Assembly (NCBI GenBank): GCA_025786725.1
Contig: JAHLTZ010000037.1
Location: forward strand, 124,001-188,000
From: Syncephalis fuscata
Lineage: Eukaryota; Zoopagomycota; Zoopagomycetes; Zoopagales; Piptocephalidaceae
Length of the DNA stretch: 64,000 nucleotides
Reading direction: 5' to 3'
The notes under the pieces were generated by a model that was not told the DNA's origin, made no database searches, and saw only the letters and a program-made list of their open reading frames with translations. A program made the translations under genes and the position numbers. The number at the start of each line of letters is the position of its first letter. Within the stretch, counting starts at the first letter, position 1. This document shows, piece by piece, positions 28,798 to 64,000 of the stretch.

Positions 28798-30160
28798 ATT
28801 GGCTATTCAAGGATATAGAAATAGATGGTTGGTAAAGGTTCTATTTTTTATGAGTCATAACAATGCAAATGCTATGTACTCGTGTTACTTGGAATGATAT
28901 ATTTAGTAACATGAATCGATGTGTTTATTTTTATTCTAATCTCATTCACTATTAGCTGTGTAGGTTGTAAGTAGTTGGTTTACTGAGATATAAAAAAAGA
29001 ATAAAACTATTGAATTCAAAAATAAACAAATAACTAGCCATATGCAACTAAAATGACTATTTGCATTTCTTTGTAGCAATTTCTGTGCTTGTCTACGATA
29101 TATCATAATCTCTCAAGTCAGTATACTGATGCAACTGCTGTCAAGTCCAAGTGTGTATTGGAAGAATAATAAAACAACATGGTTTAACGCCACTGTCCCA
29201 TAAACACTAGTTTACCGCCTATTGAGTTATTTCATAGACTATTACCACATTAAGCCATTTATCCTTTGTCTCCACAATTCAACTGTATTTGTCCTTATTA
29301 TCCAGATAAATACAGCGATCTCAATGGAGTAAATAAATACTGGCTTGTAGTGCAATTTATACGTGAGATTCATTTATACCATAATGATGAATTTTATAGC
29401 AGCAATACAAACCTACAAATTGTCTATCTACTTTTTATTTGAGCTGATAAATAATATACAATTGTTTAACTAGTTAAATTAAATAACATTATAGCTAACA
29501 ACATAAAAGTGCCAATTATACAATGTTCAACGATACAGTATTTATTTCATAATATTGCATACATTCAAACTGAATGATGCAATAACGCTGTTATATACAA
29601 TCTATATCATTTGCGAATAAGCAACAATCTAATAGTAGTTTTGTGTTAATCAAATGACGACTTTATTAAGTAATAATGATTACATATTAACAATAATTTG
29701 AGTACTTATAGTATACCTGTAAATAATTAAATACTAATTGCTATTTGAATGATAATAGCATTAAAATTACTTTAGTTTACATTGTTTACTAACATAGCGC
29801 ATTTGTACAAGTTTATTGTCAATATAATAAACTATTAATGTTTGCTAGTCTTTGTAAGCAAATGGAATATGAACATAGCTATAAGAGCTTAATCAAACAT
29901 AATTAGAGTGAAACCATATGTTTATTACTATAAGTCTGCATAGCTGAGTGTGTACAGAAAAATAGAGACATGTTGGCAATATAGTGGGTCCATCGATTAA
30001 GAGTTGAATAAACCGGAGAATTAGTTGGAATTTGATATATGAATGGACTGAATGGCGTAGTTGTCAAATGAGCTTGATTTTTGCCGAATATATACCTAAA
30101 ATATATGTAACTTGCAGTCCAACCATACTACCAATACTAATATCTTGGATGCACCGGTTA
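28798..30160. other. AT-rich spacer, no gene seen
   Basis: No supported coding region. It covers the PGM2 promoter side and the 3' end of the microexon gene. No tandem array or splice-site periodicity extends into it. Confidence 0.6.
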
Positions 30161-32544
30161 TTCTATAATCATAAAACATATATAAAATATCATATGATTA
30201 GCGTATGAGTTAACACTGTAAGTTGCTACTTACAAGCTATTATTACAAATGGGCAATTACATACAGCACATGGTATATATTTAGTGCATAGTTGATTATA
30301 GTATATAATACCACTTACGAGCTATTAGTGCAAATCATCAAACACATACAATACATAACATATGCTTAGCGCATAATTAATTAGTATAAAATAACACTTA
30401 CTAGCTATTGATACAAATGGTCAAGCACATACGGCAGGTGGCATATATTTAGTGCATAGTTGATTAGTATACAATACCACTTACGAGCTATCAATGCAAG
30501 TTATCAAGCACGCGCAGTGTATGATGTATGTTTAGCGTATAGTTAGTTATACATAATATTACTTACTAACTATTAATGCAAATTATTAAGCATGCAGTAT
30601 ACATGGCATATGCTTAGCGTATAGTTAATTAATATATATTGTTATTTACCAGCTATTAATACAAAATATCAAATACACAAAATGCATGGTCTATGTTTAG
30701 CACATAGCTAATTAGTATAAAATGTCACTTACTGCCTATTAATACAAATTATTAAACATGCATTGTACATGGTATATGTTTATCGCGTAATTGATTAATA
30801 TACTATATTACTTACGTCCTATTAATACAAATTGTTGTAAGTAAAAAGCATGGTATTTGTTTAGTGTGTAGTCAATTAGTATACAATGCCACTTACCAGC
30901 TATTAATACAAATTATTGAGTACACAGAGTGTATAAAATATTTTTAGTATGTAGTTAATTGATATATAGTGTTATTTACCAGCTATTAATACAAATTATT
31001 AAATACACAGAGCGTATAAAATATTTTTAGCACATAGTTAGTTGGTATACAATGTCACTTACAACCTATTAATACAAAATATTGAGCATGCATTGTATAT
31101 GACATATACTTAGTGTATAGTTTTGTTATAAAATATCACTTACCAGCTATTGATACAAATTATCAAACACGCACGTATATAATATATGTTTAGCACGTAG
31201 TTAGTTAGTATACAATACCACTTACATTCTATTAATATAAATTATTAAGCACATACAGCACATGGTATATGTTCAACGCATAGTTAATTGATATAATATC
31301 ACTTACTAGTTATTACTATAAATGGTCAAGTACATACAGCACATGGCATATGTTTAACGTATAATCAATTAGTATATAGTGTTACTTACTTCCTATTAAT
31401 GCAACCCATCAAACACACAAAGTGCATGGTATATATTTAACGTATATTTAGTTAATATACAATACTACTTACGGCCTATTAATACAAGTAATTAAACACG
31501 TAAAGTGTACGATGTATATTTAGTATATAGCTAATCAATATGCAGTACCACTTACCATCTATTAATACAAGCCATCAAACACACAAAATGCATGATATAT
31601 ATTTAACGTATATTTAGTTAATATACAATGCCACTTACTTTCTATTAATGCAGGTTATCAAACACGCAAAGTGTACGGTGTATGTTTAGTATATAGCTAA
31701 TCAATATGCAGTACCACTTACCATCTATTAATACAAATTATTAAATACACAGAGTGCATAATATATATTTAGTATGTAGTCAATTAGTATACAATGCCAC
31801 TTACCGACTATTAAAATTATTAGACATGCATTGTACATGGAATATGTTTAGTGTATAGTTAATTGATATAAAATATCACTTACCAGCTATTAATATAGGT
31901 TATTAGACACACATAGTCCATGATATATGTTTAGCGTATAGTTAATTAGTATATGATGTTACTTACGAACTATTAAAATTATTAGGCATACATTGTACAT
32001 GGCATATGTTTAGCGTATAGTTAATTGATATAAAATATCACTTACCAGCTATTAATATAGGTTATTAGACACACATAGTCCATGATATATGTTTAGCGTA
32101 TAGTTAATTAGTATATGATGTTACTTACGAACTATTAAAATTATTAGGCATACATTGTACATGGCATATGTTTAGCGTATAGTTAATTCGTATATAATGC
32201 TACTTGCCTTCTATTAATACAAATTATCAAATACACATAGTCCATGATATATGTTCAGTGCATAGTCAATTAATACACAACATCACTTACGAGCTATCAA
32301 TAAAAGTTGTTAAACACATACAGTAGATAACATATAATTAGTATATAAATGATTGATATACAATATAACTTACGCTCTATTGACGTTAGTTTGTTGACAA
32401 AAAATAATATTTAGCCAAGTGAATAGCTAACTATTGTAACTGCAACATACCACGACGGGCTAGAACTGGCTTAGCATCCACCATAGCTGTAGCGGCTATC
32501 AAAGCCACAATGACGGTGCAGACGACGGCAATAGAAAGCTTCAT
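30161..32544 (-). CDS. Secreted peptide precursor whose mature part is encoded by 27 consecutive 3-nt exons
   Basis: Exon 1 (32544-32451) encodes 31 residues: a signal peptide MKLSIAVVCTVIVALIAATA..VDA, then KPVLARR, and ends one base into the next codon at GTATGT. Then come 27 trinucleotide exons, each flanked by AG on its 5' side (26 of 27) and by GTAAGT (24), GTAAAT (2) or GCAAGT (1) on its 3' side. Plus-strand starts: 32374, 32291, 32208, 32129, 32046, 31967, 31884, 31805, 31722, 31639, 31556, 31473, 31390, 31307, 31226, 31144, 31063, 30980, 30897, 30816, 30733, 30650, 30567, 30485, 30402, 30319, 30234. The last exon begins at 30162 with AA and completes a TAA. Joined after the exon-1 G, the triplets read EPQVPVPVDENGRT then KSGSAGRTVTPTP, then stop: 58 aa in all. 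The Arg-Arg before the microexon part resembles a kexin site. All introns are phase 1. Function unknown; micro-exon secreted genes of schistosomes are a structural parallel. Caution: 12 of 27 triplets begin with CT, so part of the Pro/Thr/Ser/Ala bias reflects the repeat consensus. Confidence 0.75.
30234..32376 (-). repeat. Tandem array of about 26 intron-microexon units (period 79-85 bp)
   Basis: Each unit on the minus strand runs GTAAGT, an AT-rich body with conserved TTAACTATACGCTAAACATAT-like and CATGG elements, TATTAATAG, and then a variable triplet. Spacings between successive triplets are 79-85 bp, most often 83. The bodies have diverged, but the splice signals are nearly invariant, while the triplets vary freely (CTG is the commonest, 6 of 27). 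Some adjacent pairs are almost identical, for example 31884-32045 and 32046-32207, showing recent duplication of a two-unit block. The first (32377-32450) and last (30163-30233) introns are more diverged relatives or outsiders. Confidence 0.9.
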
Positions 32545-56541: not shown

Positions 56542-57538
56542 CTATAGTGTGTGATATGTCGAATATTCAGTGTCGAGCTGCGAATGACCAGGTATATGAG
56601 TGGTTTTTGGACGATTAGATAGTTTGGTAGCCATTTTTATGCGTTTACAATGGTTGTTCAGTAATGTGCTAACAACCACCCTATCGTGCATGTGTTAGCG
56701 AGGCATTATAAATTGTCGGCCACACTTACCAATCTCCAGTAAAAAATAAATCAGCATTACTTCCGCCTATTTGAAGCGGTATGCAGATACAGCAGATAAT
56801 ATTGAATAGAGCGGCAAGAAACATTATTTGAATACCATCGTGTGCCAATCGTTTCCACGCTTCCGATCCAAGCGCACGATACTGTTGCAAAGCCGTACGA
56901 CAAAAGACGGCAGAAAGAAGTACATTAAGCGGTATTATAGTTACGGTCCAGACCCAAATAAAAAACGGCGGATAATGAATAGCACAGCCATTTGGTACAT
57001 CCAATGTGGCAAAACAGCCAAATATTACCATAAAAGCAAAACTTAGTTGCGGCAGAATTAGTGGAATACACGTATATAAAACCCATTTTTTTCGGTAAAG
57101 AATTAGATATGCCTTCTGAAGCAATATCAAGCTATTACAAAAATATGTAACTGACATTCCAAATCCGATGGACCATATTAAATATCGACAGTTAAAGCAA
57201 AAGCCTAGATACACCAGTATAAATGTTGTAATAGTGATAACACCCGTAGCTGAAGGAATAAAACAGCACCAAGAGGCGAGAAGATGTGGACGGTTGAGAA
57301 CCATTTTGGCTGAGATATATACATTGAGTGCGATAACGGGGAGGGCTCCCATTACAAATGCTATCTGGAATCTGATGCCTGAAAACTGGTCGTATTTTCT
57401 ATTTCCGCTTTCAAAGCTTTGTACCTCGAAATCAAGCAAATTCATCTCGCCATATGGATGGAGTGGGATTCCCCATACTTTGGTGGCATTATTTTGCCAT
57501 TCAAGCTCTTCTGGATTGCTATAGTTGAATACTGGCAT
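56542..57538 (-). CDS. Seven-transmembrane receptor-like protein (family member 1)
   Basis: Two exons, 57538-56730 and 56680-56542, joined by a 49-nt intron inside the GDW Trp codon, give 315 aa. I chose the start at 57538 (MPVFNYSN) because the paralogues begin MPxxxY/D at the same point. A short extracellular-like N-terminus with WGIPLHPYGEMNLLDF precedes six hydrophobic segments in exon 1; the seventh (GDWVVVSTLL) starts at the splice. Conserved features are SWCCFIP, CNSLILLQKAYLILYRKKW, NGCAIHYPP and EAWKRLAHDGIQ. The tail carries NRPKTTHIPGHSQ. The topology suggests a G-protein-coupled-receptor-like role at the plasma membrane, but no known GPCR class motif is clear. It heads a cluster of four. 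Confidence 0.75.
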
Positions 57539-59004
57539 TGTAAAATGGTGGGAACTGATATCTAGGAATAAATGAAAATACAAGAATTATTATTTACAGA
57601 AAAAACTAAACCATTCTACTTTATACCATCTAAGCTCAAAGTTATCCAAGCACATTGTCTCGGCAATAAAACCGGTAATTATATGCAGTTTTAAACCAGT
57701 TCTACGCGTGAACTAAAGCATTGTCTGCTCAGATTTCCTTTATATATAATATCGGAATTAACCTCATATATGCAATGAATTGATTTTAAAGTATAACTGC
57801 CATATATATGGCACGATATTACAAAACTATGCACATTTCATGTATGTTAGTAGCTAAATGAATACAAGTACTTTAGAAAATGTACTGGAACCAAGAACCA
57901 ATTTCCGATGGGTTTTCCAATCGTGCCACGTGATTGCTTAATTTGGCAGTAATGCACTAAAGTGTGTTTTTTTGCTATACACAATCGTCTCTCTGCTGGC
58001 TTGTGTGTCATAATATAATGAGAAATCTTACCAATATCATGTATCATATTTTATCTTTATCGTCAAACTGATTATATTGTACTATACTAGTGTAGTATAA
58101 TGACAGCTCATTACATCTATGTAATTAAAATTTAAAAATCGATGAAATTAAGTAATACGAGCTATATACAAGCTGTGGCTAGTGAGTTGCTTTAAGATTG
58201 AATTATTCTAGAATTAAATAATTAAAAAAGATCCATTCAAAATGAGCATTAAAATATATTTATAGCAATATTGCACAAATACAGCTTCACTATTTTACAA
58301 TAATGTGCTTAACTAATGGCATTTTATATGTAGTAAACGCTTGTATAGTTGGTAATGATAATCGATGCATCACACAATACTTTAAATATCGCGATGTTGG
58401 CATTACAGCTTAACATGAGCTGATTTGTAATGTGATTGTTTTAATTTTAACGTAAATGTTAGTTATAGTAAAATTTGATAGTTATGAATTATTGTGATCA
58501 GACTGATTGTTAATTTCAGTAGCAATCATTCGTGGTAAACGCACCATAATTTGTTGATGTTTAAATTTTCGTAAGTGAATATGATAGCGTAGAGATTAAA
58601 ATAATAAACAACAACTAAATTTATTTAAAATGCTGCTGGTAGTCTGGCATATTGGTGCATGTATTAAATCACTTAATTAGCAATTAATATATTTTGCTTT
58701 TGTGCAGAATAATACTATCACTTCAAGGTATAAAACTGTTTTAGGATGACTGACGATAAAGCATGTAAAAGATGGTAAAACTGCATGTGCAATGAGTCTA
58801 TTTACACACAATCTTTGCTGCGTGCACTTGTTTTTCTATATATGTCACCATTTACCGGTTTGTTATGCAGGCAACCAAGGCCGGCAAATCTAGCTTTTTA
58901 CCATTGTCTTTTCGATTCCGCCGGCCTTATCCAATTTCACTTACTCTAATTCACCTACAATCTTATAAGCGTCTTTGTATAATCATACTAAACATATCCC
59001 ATTA
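57539..59004. other. Intergenic region between divergent receptor-like genes
   Basis: AT-rich, carrying the promoters of two divergent paralogues. A frame at 57847-58047 has no support. Nothing else seen. Confidence 0.5.
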
Positions 59005-59989
59005 ATGCCTATCATCAGCGATACCGATCCAGCAGAGGTCGAGTGGATAAAGAATGCCACTACACTGTGGGGAATTCCACTTCATCCGCTCGGTGAGCTA
59101 GATTTATACGATTTTTACACTCAAACAATTAGAGAATCACCCGAAAAGCACCACTCAATGGCCGGCGGCAAACTTCAAGTGATATTTACTATAATAGTGC
59201 TATCTATACATGTACGAAATTTTATTGTTTCGAGTAAAATGATAGCATCTTCTCCTCATTCGCTTGCCCCATGGTGCTGTTTAATATCTGCTTTTCTAGG
59301 CTTTGTGGCAGGCTCGACCTATATTTTTGCATTTTTAGGCCTTCTTCTAAAGTGCCGAGTCGTAGTATGGCTTGTTTTGTTTAAGCTAGCTTTGGTGTAC
59401 TTTTTTAATAGCCTAATACTGCTACAAAAAGCCTATCTGGTACTGTATCGTAAAAAATGGATTATATACATTAGCATTCCATTTATGCTAATGCAGCTTG
59501 GTTTTGGCGTATTCAGCATATACTTTAGCTATGTCAAATTAGAAGCAGAAGCCGACTGTACGCTACATTATTGTATATACCTAATTTACTACTGGCTTGT
59601 AATTAGCATACCGCTCAATGTATTCTTCTCTGTTATTTTCTCCCGTGTCGCATTTCAACAGTATTCGGTGTATGGATCGGATGCATGGAAGCGATTAGCA
59701 CGAGACGGTATTCAAGCAATGTGCTTGGCAGTATTTTGCAATCTATTTTTCTGTGCACTGCTCATGTTTCAGATAGGCAAAAGTAGATCAGATAACTGTT
59801 TCGTCTTGGATCTGTAGGTACTATACGATTATTATTTCAACTTACTAATACACTTTTAGAGTAATTGTCACCACTATATTGGTCAACCATTGCCAAAACA
59901 TGCGTAAAGTCAGCAGGATCTCCAATCGTCCAAAAACCAGCTATATACCTGGATATTCACAAATTGACACTGAAAACAGCAAACAATAA
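59005..59989 (+). pseudogene. Seven-transmembrane receptor-like protein (family member 2, broken splice)
   Basis: The only plus-strand member. Exon 1 (59005-59817) starts MPIISDTDPAEVEW and runs 270 codons with the family landmarks WGIPLHPLGELDLYDF, PWCCLIS, NSLILLQKAYLVLYRKKW and DAWKRLARDGIQAMC. Where the other copies have GDW split by an intron, this one reads DL then an in-frame TAG just before GTACTA. A matching second exon is still present at 59860-59989 (VIVTTILVNHCQNMRK, NRPKTSYIPGYSQ), but no splice restores it without a stop. It therefore encodes either a six-segment truncated protein or is a young pseudogene. The rest of the frame is undamaged, so the change looks recent. Confidence 0.65.
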
Positions 59990-60789
59990 TACTTTATAAT
60001 AGAGACTCTGTTGCCAAAATAGTATTAATAAATACTTTAGTTTAAATATCATGTTTTGCACATGCATAAACAATGCTTGAATTTTATTTGTTGTTCGGGA
60101 CAGTTTAAAAAAGCCAAAAAATGATAATAAACAGTTAAGCCTCTGTGTTTTTTCTGTGCTTTCTCTGCATTTAGTATGATGTTACAGTTACTATTCAACT
60201 TAATTAAATAGAGCTGTGTAGTAAAAATTGATTAAAAAATAATTGGTCGGTGTATAGTCATCAACTTGAAAAATTAGTTATTGTCAGCTTTTACAAACAT
60301 TATGCATGACACCAGCCATAACACGATTTATATTTATTAAAACTTTTGCCATTTATAGGAATATATAGAAAGAGAGAAAACAAAGGTCCCACAATCCTTA
60401 GTATTTAGTTAGAAATCGTTCCAAAAAAGGCTATTTTTGTAACCCACTGTGTAAATACAAAATATCTCGACAAGCTGCTTGTACTGTGAAGGCACATTAT
60501 AAATTATAATGCATCACGGTCGCGCTACCACGTCCCAACTTCAGTACAGTTATCTGCGCTTTGGATGAGCGACTGGGTTATCGTCTAGGTAGAGCAACAT
60601 TTGGATGCAAGTTCAAATGTGCCAGCCTTTGAGTCTGACCTTTGCCTATTATACTCCGCATTGTTTAGAATTATGTGCTGGTACAAATTTATCATTGCAT
60701 TTTTAACAAAGTATAAGTATAGTAATAAATATCAGCTTAGTTTTATTATTTAGACTTTGCTAAAGGTAAGGTAGTTTATAATTGCTTCA
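59990..60789. other. Spacer, no gene seen
   Basis: AT-rich sequence between convergent family members 2 and 3. The stretch near 60500-60650 is somewhat GC-richer, but no frame or RNA gene is supported. Confidence 0.5.
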
Positions 60790-61775
60790 TTAGATTGCAG
60801 AACTTGCGATATGAAATTGTGACTGTCCAGGAATGTAGCTAGTTTTTGGACGATGTGAAAGATTGGTGACTCGTCGTATATTCTGGCAATGATGAGTCAA
60901 TATTGTGCTGACGATTACCCTGAGCAATAGTCAATAAATAGTAACTATCAGCGTAATAGTACTTACCAGTCTCCGGGGAAAAGTAGGTCAGCATTGACTC
61001 CACCCACTTGAAATTCAATACAAAAATAACAGAATATGTTGCAGAATACGGCCAGACACATTGCTTGAATGCCGTCACGCGCCAGTCTTTTCCAAGCATC
61101 CGATCCATATGTGCGATATTGTTGGAATGCAATACGGCAGAAGATAATAGAGAAGATTACATTGAGCGGTATGGTAATACTGAACCAGTACCACATCAGG
61201 AAAGATGAATAGTGTGCAACGCAGCCTGTTTCCGCTTCCAGAGTAATGTATGTGTAAAATATAGAAAGAAATGGGTACGGCATTTGTAATAATATTGATG
61301 GAATACCAACGTATAGCACCCATTTCTGTCGACAAAGTATTAGATAAGTCTTTTGAAGTACTATTAAACCATTGCACGTATAAACTACAGTTATTCCGAA
61401 TACAATGGCCCACAAGACGTATCGGCAAGTAAAGAAAATGCCTAGCTGCACCATTATAATAAGCAAGCCGGTTAAGATGCCCAAAAATGCTGGGATCAGA
61501 CAGCACCATGGAGCAAGTATTCGTGGCCGCTCGACTACCATTTTAACGGAAATAACAAAATTATTGAAAACAATAGAGAGCATCATAATGGTAAACACTA
61601 TCTGAAATTTGCTTCCAACTAAACGATGGCGCTGTTCCTGCAGATCGTTGGGTGTCTGCATATAAAAGTCAAATATATTCATTTCACCAAGTGGATGGAG
61701 AGGAATGCCCCAAAACGTCTTGGCATCCTTCATCCACGCGGTTTCTGTAACGTTGGTATAATCGATAGACGGCAT
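60790..61775 (-). CDS. Seven-transmembrane receptor-like protein (family member 3)
   Basis: Exons 61775-60967 and 60919-60790 with a 47-nt intron splitting the GDW Trp codon; 312 aa. It starts MPSIDYTNVTETAW. Landmarks are WGIPLHPLGEMNIFDF, APWCCLIPAFLGI, CNGLIVLQKTYLILCRQKW, ETGCVAHYSSF, SDAWKRLARDGIQAMCLAVFCN and GGVNADLLFPGDW, then the seventh segment VIVSTILTHHCQN and a polar tail NRP-like HRPKTSYIPGQSQ. Exon lengths match member 1 exactly (809 nt). It is very similar to member 4, including intron and 3' sequence, which marks a recent tandem duplication. Function unknown. Confidence 0.8.
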
Positions 61776-62685
61776 TAGTGAATTATTATAATGTATAAAA
61801 TAATAACAAATATTTTAAAGACTGAGGTAAGCTAGTACAAAGTGAAAAAGAAACGATACTCATTTAATGGCGAACTAATCAACAAGCCATTTAATAATAC
61901 CATGCCTTGTGGCTATGCATGTTAAACCGGTATTCAATCCTCGTTTGTCCTTGCACTAAAATCAACAAACTAATGCACACGACTATTGTATCATCTGCCT
62001 TTTTTACACTAGAAAATAAGTCTGCTACACTATTGCATATCTTACTAGTATGAGATTGCTATTATGTTCTGTTTATGAATATTGCACACGATCGATTGAT
62101 TTTTGAGATATGTAAAATTATGTGGTGACTTAATGTAGCAATCAACTGCAAATCCATCCAAAGGTTTGTTATACATACTGCCAATTAGTACAAACTGTTT
62201 ACCTGCTTTGAGTCCCCTCAGGTGACACGAAACCGCATGCATACTGCAGCTAAACGTCACGTGCAGGCTTCGTTTCGTTGTTTTTTCGTAATCCACCTTG
62301 AATGATAGCGCGAGGCTTTGATGAAATCAACGCCAAGTGGCTGTGTGGACTGATTCCATGTTACCAGGCCGATGAATCAAACGCTGATAACGCATACAGT
62401 GGTAGCATTTAATAAGCTGATACAATTTCAATAGTTTTCAATAAATGATCTAACGCTAAAACTATATTAAAGCAATAAACCCCATAAAATATTGCTTGGT
62501 ACATAAAATGTTTGCAGCATTTGTATTCAATTCTATTAACATTTGTATGTGTAAATTATTATGAAAAGTTATGCTTTATTCTACCTTGAAATTACTGCAT
62601 TGCTTTCGCCAACATATATGAAATAAAAACAGCAACTTTGAATACTACTTTACTACGTTGAAAGTAGTTTTGAATCAGTTTTAAG
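61776..62685. other. Spacer, no gene seen
   Basis: Promoter side of member 3 and 3' side of member 4. No supported frame. Confidence 0.5.
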
Positions 62686-63671
62686 TTAAATCCTTGAGCT
62701 GGCAATGCCAATCTGAGAGCTTCCATGTAGATAGCTGATTTTTGGACGATGTGAAAAATTGGTGACTTGTCGCATATTTTGGCAATGGTGGGTCAGTATT
62801 GTGCTGACGATTACCCTAAGCAATAGTTAGTAAATAGTAACTATCAGCGTAATAATACTCACCAGTCTCCGGGGAAAAGTAGGTCAGCGTTGATTCCGCC
62901 TATTTGAAATGCTATAACAAACCAGCAAAAAATATTGCACAATACAGCCAAACACATCGCCTGAACGCCGTCGCGTGCCAAACGCCTCCAGGCATCCGAG
63001 CCATGCGTGCGATATTGTCGAAAGGAAACGTAGCAGAAAATAGCAGAGAGCAATAGATTAAGCGGCAAAGTGATACCAAGCCAGTACCATATAATAGCCG
63101 GAGGGTAATGCGCAACACAGCCGGCTTCTGTCTCTATCGTGACATAGGTGAAACAAACACTAAAAATAGGATATGCTAGTTGAGGCACCATCGATGGGAT
63201 GCCAACGTACAGCACCCATTTTTGCCGACAAACAATCAAATATGCCTTCTGAAGCAGTATCAATCCATTGGAGATGTACACTATAGATATTCCAAACACA
63301 ATGGCCCATAAAACATCTCGGCAATGAAAGATGTAGTCCAACTCCATCATTATGATAATCAAACCAGTTATTATGCCCAAAATAGCAGGAATCAGGCAAC
63401 ACCAAGAAGATAGCACACGTGGGCGATTCACCACCATTTTGATAGAAATAATCAGGTTGTTGAAAACGATAGCAATCATTATGACGGTGAATATTATTTG
63501 GAATCTATTGCCCGCCAATTGATTGTGTCGTTCTTTTAGATTGCCAGGTAGTTGCGTGTAGAAATCAAATACACTCATTTCTCCGAGTGGATGAAGCGGA
63601 ATTCCCCATAGGTCATCAGCATCCTTAATCCACTCCGTCTCTTTTAGATTGCTATAATTGATGATTGGCAT
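62686..63671 (-). CDS. Seven-transmembrane receptor-like protein (family member 4)
   Basis: Exons 63671-62863 and 62815-62686 joined by a 47-nt intron with GTGAGT donor; 312 aa. I placed the start at 63671 (MPIINYSNLKETEW) rather than the longer in-frame ATG at 63731, by homology with the other copies. Landmarks as in member 3: WGIPLHPLGEMSVFDF, SWCCLIPAILGI, NGLILLQKAYLIVCRQKW, EAGCVAHYPP, SDAWRRLARDGVQAMCLAVLCN, LLFPGDW and VIVSTILTHHCQNMRQ. Its tail (HRPKISYLHGSSQ) has drifted from the YIPG consensus. Confidence 0.8.
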
Positions 63672-64000
63672 TAATGATTTTTGTATAATATATGGGTAAA
63701 TATAGAGCTGTATAAATATTACTAAAAACAAACCGAAGAAAGAGGATGCAATAGCGAGGATACCGGACTAACCAGCTGTTCCATAATAACCAACTATACT
63801 TATAATGCTGTTTTCAGATCTAATCAAATGTTAAACTTGCCTTGTGTTGCATGCAAAGTAAACCGGTAAGTGAACACAACTCATTTTTGCAAAACAACAG
63901 GTGAACAATATGTACGATAGCCTTACAACCTGTTTCACCATTTGCAAATCAATGCGATTCGTTCCATCGTGCTTAATTAACGTAAAATAATGGTCATACT
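63672..64000. other. Promoter side of family member 4, window end
   Basis: AT-rich upstream sequence; nothing else recognised before the window ends. Confidence 0.5.

Follow-up and report, generated by a model that had tools for sequence, protein, structure and literature searches.

Can the mature part of a protein be written one codon at a time, with an intron between each codon and the next? This question is raised by a locus on the minus strand of a 64,000-nucleotide stretch of contig JAHLTZ010000037.1 of Syncephalis fuscata (Zoopagales, Piptocephalidaceae), which was analyzed as a whole and is referred to here as the window. Species of Syncephalis are parasites of other fungi. A sequence-only reading of the locus had proposed 27 minus-strand exons of 3 nt in a row, and a weight matrix that is blind to the letters of the triplets locates all 27 of them, from position 32376 to position 30234, at successive spacings of 79 to 85 nt. 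The plan of the gene is an exon 1, 27 units of ~83 bases that each consist of a short intron and a 3-base exon, a split stop codon, and a 3' UTR (Table 1). The same reading had described the flanking AATAG acceptors and GTAAGT donors as almost invariant. This holds for most of the array, where 21 of the 27 triplets have the exact AATAG-NNN-GTAAGT arrangement (0.05 are expected, and the maximum in 100 shuffles of the window is 1), but the other 6 deviate from the exact pair. The acceptors are AATAG (24), GATAG (2), and AATAA (1), with 26 of 27 ending in AG, and the donors are GTAAGT (24), GTAAAT (2), and GCAAGT (1). The AATAA acceptor belongs to the 14th triplet (CTA, 31309) and is kept in L009, a near-copy of this locus on contig C84. 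This triplet may be skipped, or it may be part of a 9-nt exon that starts from an upstream TATAG; the reading frame is kept either way.

Table 1. Parts of the predicted window gene (window coordinates)
Feature	Position	Strand	Remarks
Exon 1, secretion-signal/pro type: MKLSIAVVCTVIVALIAATAMVDAKPVLARR + 1 nt	32451..32544	-	94 nt, ends in phase 1
Intron 1	32377..32450	-	74 nt, GTATGT ... CTAACGTCAATAG, branch-like A at -10
3-nt exon 1, AGC	32374..32376	-	
3-nt exon 2, CTC	32291..32293	-	
3-nt exon 3, AAG	32208..32210	-	followed by GC donor
3-nt exon 4, TTC	32129..32131	-	
3-nt exon 5, CTG	32046..32048	-	
3-nt exon 6, TTC	31967..31969	-	unit pair 6-7 97.5% like pair 4-5
3-nt exon 7, CTG	31884..31886	-	unit pair 6-7 97.5% like pair 4-5
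3-nt exon 8, TCG	31805..31807	-	
3-nt exon 9, ATG	31722..31724	-	
3-nt exon 10, AAA	31639..31641	-	
3-nt exon 11, ATG	31556..31558	-	
3-nt exon 12, GCC	31473..31475	-	
3-nt exon 13, GAA	31390..31392	-	
3-nt exon 14, CTA	31307..31309	-	acceptor AATAA (no AG)
3-nt exon 15, AAT	31226..31228	-	
3-nt exon 16, CTG	31144..31146	-	
3-nt exon 17, GTT	31063..31065	-	
3-nt exon 18, CTG	30980..30982	-	GTAAAT donor
3-nt exon 19, CTG	30897..30899	-	
3-nt exon 20, GAC	30816..30818	-	
3-nt exon 21, GCA	30733..30735	-	
3-nt exon 22, CTG	30650..30652	-	GTAAAT donor
3-nt exon 23, TTA	30567..30569	-	
3-nt exon 24, CTC	30485..30487	-	
3-nt exon 25, CTA	30402..30404	-	
3-nt exon 26, CTC	30319..30321	-	
3-nt exon 27, CTT	30234..30236	-	last T = base 1 of split stop
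Last intron	30163..30233	-	71 nt
Last exon: AA completes TAA stop, then 3' UTR/3' flank	29908..30162	-	homology to intronless paralogs

Joined in the phase set by exon 1, the triplets of the window gene read EPQVPVPVDENGRTKSGSAGRTVTPTP and then run into a TAA stop that is split T|AA over the last junction (the last exon begins AATAACC), which is the open frame and stop codon that had been claimed. By itself this frame proves little, because 48% of shuffled orders of the same triplets are also stop-free in phase 1. If the joined triplets are read in the two remaining frames, there are 2 stops in one and none in the other, and the triplets taken each as a codon contain 0 stops. Since the window gene alone is inconclusive, the proof has to come from its family.

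The genome that was searched for this family consists of 28.95 Mb in 299 contigs. The strict arrangement AATAG-NNN-GTAAGT occurs 3183 times (1400 + 1783), compared with 28 times (11 + 17) for the reversed control, while exon lengths of 4 to 30 between the same flanking sites (27 lengths pooled) give 1444 occurrences versus 982 in the control. Thirty-nine arrays were parsed (see below), with 10 to 40 exons each and a median of 27. Of their 1056 exons, 766 are strict; strict sites of lengths 1 and 2 number only 1 and 3 in these arrays. If the strict share of 766/1056 holds genome-wide, the total would be ~4,400 3-nt exons. When the genome was searched with the exon-1 peptide, 150 of 322 candidates were scored matches. 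Among 30 of the exon-1 loci (L009 to L038), 17 have arrays and 12 have an uninterrupted reading frame, and one shorter locus (L014) was left unjudged. The proposed series of 3-nt exons is upheld, but it is not limited to the gene for which it was described; it belongs to a family with thousands of such exons. Two further arrays, at C2:519736-522460 and C2:655089-660306, lie outside the 150 scored matches, and their introns resemble those of the window array by eye.

In order to determine whether the triplets are joined in order, we counted stop codons at the joins between them. The main set comprised 42 array loci (L039 to L080), of which 38 could be parsed and used and, together with the window gene, make up the 39 arrays. 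Two loci were left out for unusual or broken first donors (L047 and L055), one because it has only 4 candidate exons (L063), and one because its stretch had been taken from the wrong side of its exon 1 (L053). Splice sites were picked blind to triplet content. All 39 arrays have an exon 1 that ends in phase 1, and an in-phase stop follows the array in 21 of the 22 for which the last exon was located. When adjacent triplets are joined in the phase of exon 1, there is 1 stop in 945 joins, whereas shuffling the triplets within each gene leads one to expect 52.6, and the lowest of 1000 runs still had 37. In contrast, skip-one joins contain 62 stops in 978, skip-two joins 63 in 939, adjacent joins in reverse 67 in 945, and the frame that starts from the second triplet base 73 in 945. 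Stop rarity alone does not pick the frame, since triplets read as stand-alone codons also hold few stops (3 in 1056). The frame is picked instead by the neighbor-only stop pattern, by the share of cysteine, which is 0.6% in stand-alone triplets, and by the phase of exon 1, from which the stand-alone frame does not follow.

The same pattern is found at strict sites throughout the genome. A triplet that ends in T is followed by one that starts with AA or AG, which would give TAA or TAG, in 4 of 567 joins, two of which are apparently in copies of one gene, while such a start follows a triplet that does not end in T in 229 of 1256 joins. At skip-one joins the value is 77 of 438, which is the background rate. 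TGA occurs in 0 of the 567 T-ending joins, for which the background was counted for AA and AG starts only. A Fisher test on the genome-wide joins gives 2.6e-34, a value that is overstated because paralogs are not independent. In 8 partial arrays outside the main set, there is 1 stop in 88 adjacent joins and there are 3 in 75 skip-one joins; the one stop lies in L022, which is apparently a copy of the gene (L052) that accounts for the single stop in 945.

The peptides predicted by joining the triplets in order are mostly rich in cysteine. They contain 142 cysteines in 945 codons, compared with 76 in shuffles, and 49 CxxxC motifs, compared with 5.4. A framework of the form C..C-gap-C..C is present in 20 of the 39 genes versus 0.7 in shuffles. 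CxxC is not significantly enriched in the array products (11 occurrences, with a shuffle mean of 5.8 and a maximum of 14). Exon 1 of the family encodes, as judged by eye, a hydrophobic N terminus of the secretion-signal type. The cysteine content can be compared directly with that of the intronless paralogs, which include L013, L015, L016, L019, L021, L023, L029, L030, L033, L034, and L037; these share their signal exon, upstream DNA, and 3' flank with the array genes, and their mature part is contiguous and usually cysteine-rich. An example of what follows the signal exon in these paralogs is GDRCTDCIDACTATKKNAVVCLNQCTNQKKCPA, in which the cysteine framework is similar. L015 is letter-identical to the database protein BDF19DRAFT_453325. 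Cysteine makes up 15.0% of array codons and 15.7% of the 382 codons of 11 distinct intronless proteins. Codon choice in arrays and intronless genes agrees for Cys, Pro, Gly, Lys, Gln, and Thr (for example, the share of TGC is 0.74 and 0.77, that of CCT 0.77 and 0.83, and that of GGC 0.41 and 0.41, respectively), and the fit is poorer for Ser, Asn, Glu, and Ala. Based on the stop pattern at the joins, the CxxxC spacing, and the cysteine share, we conclude from the genomic sequence that the array triplets code for protein in the phase that exon 1 sets and that the product under selection is the one made by joining every triplet, in order, to the one next to it.

All 204 of the compared pairs of array and intronless loci have homologous upstream DNA, and the 15 longest of these alignments extend over 1290 to 1547 columns at 74 to 80% identity. 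An origin of the intronless paralogs by retroposition is therefore unlikely, and the change between the two forms probably took place in situ. The intronless genes are either products of in-place intron loss or the ancestral form. In the 5 family members that were scanned against Pfam, there was no match above the cut-off and one below it (E 0.016). A profile search gave 12 matches, all of them from S. fuscata, and found no protein from outside the species. The alpha-hairpinin pattern consists of two CxxxC motifs on a helical hairpin. CxxxC is enriched in this family, and the predicted model of one protein (P0001, single-sequence prediction, mean pLDDT of 66) has helices; when this model was compared with the PDB, no match was better than E 2.8.

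The window gene is not typical of this family, in that its product is not cysteine-rich. It belongs to a class of 7 arrays with at most two cysteines, which is uninformative alone, with 1 stop at adjacent joins versus 3.5 expected (not significant) and 1 stop in 99 skip-one joins. Serial splicing could thus be real in the cysteine-rich arrays while the window array is decaying or unexpressed, a reading that is compatible with our explanation of the family and that would also account for the acceptor without AG found in both copies. Against this, exon 1, the phase, the stop codon, and the 3' UTR of the window gene are intact, all acceptors but that one end in AG, the 3' flank matches that of 10 of the 12 intronless loci, and the intronless L037 has a similarly short, non-Cys mature part. 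We consider it unlikely that the window array is decaying or unexpressed.

The earlier proposal of one codon per exon applies to nearly every internal exon, but many arrays also contain an exon of 6 nt. In the 39 arrays there are 50 gaps of about double length, and 22 of these contain a 6-nt exon with a good score (above 8). These exons usually read NNNAAT, stand just before the triplet that completes a cysteine codon, and contribute two codons' worth of sequence in phase. The candidates in other gaps are of 2 nt (4 gaps), 1 nt (1 gap), 4 nt (1 gap), and 3 nt (1 gap), and the remaining 21 have nothing above the score limit, with a 6-nt exon as the best candidate in 15 of them. Exons of 1, 2, or 4 nt would break the frame if used, and they may mark damaged genes or a lower limit for inclusion. 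In three loci (L022, L025, and L028), gaps of 497 to 897 nt near the start of the array hold similar-looking sequence, most clearly in L022 and L028, which may come from the insertion of a mobile element into an intron.

The introns of the arrays are short (median of 78 nt in the 39 arrays). Their sites were picked with a matrix made from strict matches, and the uniformity of the following counts is partly by construction: among 1056 donors, 1041 are GT and 14 are GC, with GTAAGT at 901, and among 1056 acceptors, 1053 end in AG, with AATAG at 894. Column frequencies give a branch-site match YTRAY with its A at -10, and intron 1 of the window gene has CTAAC with the branch A at the same distance. 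The window also contains a dynein gene, with cytoplasmic dynein as its best match. In a small sample inspected by eye, a few introns of this gene have signals of the same kind (GTAAGT and either AATAG or TTTTAG). With their GT/GC-AG ends, branch motif, and genome-typical signals, the array introns have the features of predicted U2-type introns. The third base of the triplets is T in 307, G in 287, A in 273, and C in 189; G is thus not preferred immediately upstream of the donor, and what is recognized must lie in the intron.

An exon of 3 nt is too short for exon definition, and splicing factors could not occupy its two splice sites simultaneously; textbook splicing models predict that such exons are skipped. 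We propose that the ordinary spliceosome would take out the array introns one after another by intron definition, probably cotranscriptionally. The partner of each GTAAGT donor would be whichever AATAG acceptor is transcribed first after it, with pairing taking place before the following acceptor exists, and the upstream exon would lengthen by 3 bases with each splicing step, so that exon definition would never be needed for a 3-nt exon. The serial reading proposed earlier is borne out by the avoidance of stops between neighbors only, by cysteines whose share and spacing resemble those in the intronless paralogs, and by ordinary GT-AG signals. It is very probable, as far as sequence can tell, that the family consists of small genes for putative secreted peptides, in which the mature part is an array of one short intron and one 3-nt exon after another that is spliced serially.

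The closest precedents in style for such genes appear to be the micro-exon genes (MEGs) of Schistosoma and the bicycle genes of aphids. As far as the consulted part of one source describes them, MEGs are multicopy parasite genes for secreted proteins that are made up for the most part of very short exons with lengths usually divisible by 3 (6 to 81 bp, or 3 to 81 bp according to the abstract, most often 15 bp, with 10 to 20 per gene), and that have introns of 0.1 to 5 kb and alternative splicing (PMC10526429). Like these genes, the S. fuscata genes as predicted have most of their mature region in short in-frame exons; the exon 1 in front of these ends in phase 1 in every one of the 39 arrays. 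Unlike those described in that part of the source, their internal exons are nearly all 3 nt, with up to 40 per array, their introns are ~78 nt and similar to each other, and selection favors full inclusion. No homology to MEG proteins was found, all matches in the profile search being from S. fuscata itself. By architecture, the array genes as predicted are extreme micro-exon genes, and MEGs are the nearest known kind.

The likeness to MEGs suggests a different use for the arrays, namely, that they exist so that triplets can be skipped and each gene can give peptides of many lengths. The units are alike in splice signals and phase, so any skip would keep the frame, and the central exons of schistosome MEGs are indeed spliced alternatively, according to the same part of the literature (PMC10526429). 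However, stops at skip-one joins occur at the background rate both in the 39 arrays and genome-wide, from which it follows that the products of skipping are not kept clean by selection. We regard combinatorial splicing as the purpose of the arrays as quite improbable; triplet skipping at a low level is possible. Serial inclusion, as proposed above, is the reading that we follow below.

Comparison of related arrays indicates how they change. The window array has one TTC-CTG pair more than its near-copy on contig C84, with which it shares 1500 bp of upstream DNA at 99.0% identity; the two TTC-CTG pairs of the window array match at 97.5% over 162 nt, and with the extra pair VP becomes VPVP. Neighboring introns are more alike (0.765) than introns from different arrays (0.707), and similarity falls roughly with distance. 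Tandem Repeats Finder reports the window region as a tandem repeat with a period of 83/166. This and the likeness of neighboring introns might be taken to mean that the array is a satellite-like repeat within one long intron, in which case the triplets would be passengers and exon 1 would be joined directly to the last exon, but a passenger repeat gives no reason for stop avoidance between neighbors only, for CxxxC peptides, or for a paralog-like share of cysteine, and the exon 1-last exon join would leave the window gene with at most one mature residue, which makes this reading scarcely credible.

In five pairs of paralogs, differences were found at 22 of 1182 splice-site bases, 929 of 8634 bases of intron bodies, and 86 of 329 triplet bases. 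The triplets thus differ ~2.4 times as often as the surrounding intron bodies and are the fastest-changing part of the arrays; misalignment of units and constraint on introns may add to the difference. In the same five pairs there was no excess of change at the wobble base and no signature of purifying selection. Because each of the three positions in a triplet is more divergent than the introns, positive selection is neither proved nor excluded. On the reading of serially joined codons, unequal crossing-over would lengthen or shorten the arrays by whole units, and each gain or loss would add or remove codons with the frame unchanged and so diversify the peptide, plausibly for interaction with the host fungus. 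The arrays may in this way be an engine for the fast diversification of putative secreted peptides. On balance, and with less assurance than for the gene structure, we favor the view that codons serve here as cassettes: the mature proteins would be written codon by codon in a satellite-like array of look-alike introns, in which duplication, deletion, or swapping of units makes whole-residue edits with the frame intact, and the spliceosome would read up to ~40 exons of 3 bases serially with high fidelity. Two related arrays, C1:475325-478090 and C1:531562-534399, lie ~55 kb apart in opposite orientation, and their products have long stretches in common with gaps between.

Genomes that contain many similar introns are known from introner elements. 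The introns of S. fuscata differ from these in that they sit in tandem at a spacing of 3 nt and are most alike between neighbors, which points to tandem duplication. The aphid bicycle genes form a large divergent family of putative effectors with ~17 exons, of which the small internal ones are nearly all of one phase, and one "megacycle" gene has >100 micro-exons (PMC9168663, in part). None of the small exons mentioned in the consulted part of that source is of 3 nt, and the likeness considered here is one of architecture. Inclusion of exons of 1 to 3 nt is within the capacity of the spliceosome, as described for Arabidopsis APC11 and others (PMC4674806 and PMC8831610, each in part), but the 1-nt and 3-nt cases covered in these excerpts are isolated, and at most two micro-exons, of 5 and 12 nt, are adjacent. 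Among titles and abstracts, with few subscription papers covered, we found no description of genes with serial one-codon exons in Syncephalis or other fungi. Thousands of 3-nt exons under selection for ordered joining would be a severe test of RNA splicing, and they make intron definition, splicing order, and fidelity testable in one organism. The arrays also point to a novel route by which the peptides of a parasite may diversify in evolution.

A large family of putative secreted proteins can escape gene finders, as the 12 public models compared with 150 scored exon-1 matches illustrate. None of these 12 deposited models has more than 4 consecutive residues in common with the mature part of any of 42 parsed products. 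One of them (P0005) consists of exon 1 and the first triplet of the array at L011, in the predicted phase, and then continues into the next intron. Another (P0002) joins exon 1 to an 81-nt piece ~230 nt further on, and this piece is similar to what a parsed array intron would encode (score of 98 of a possible 147). P0005 therefore reads an array intron as coding, and P0002 seems to do the same. Three other models (P0007, P0009, and P0010) have the same signal exon before quite different mature parts, for example, a longer one rich in lysine and histidine, and the signal exon thus seems to be common to several classes of peptide. Elsewhere in the window, positions 56726 to 63767 contain four related frames of 282 to 302 amino acids that include hydrophobic stretches and seem to represent a membrane-protein family local to this region.
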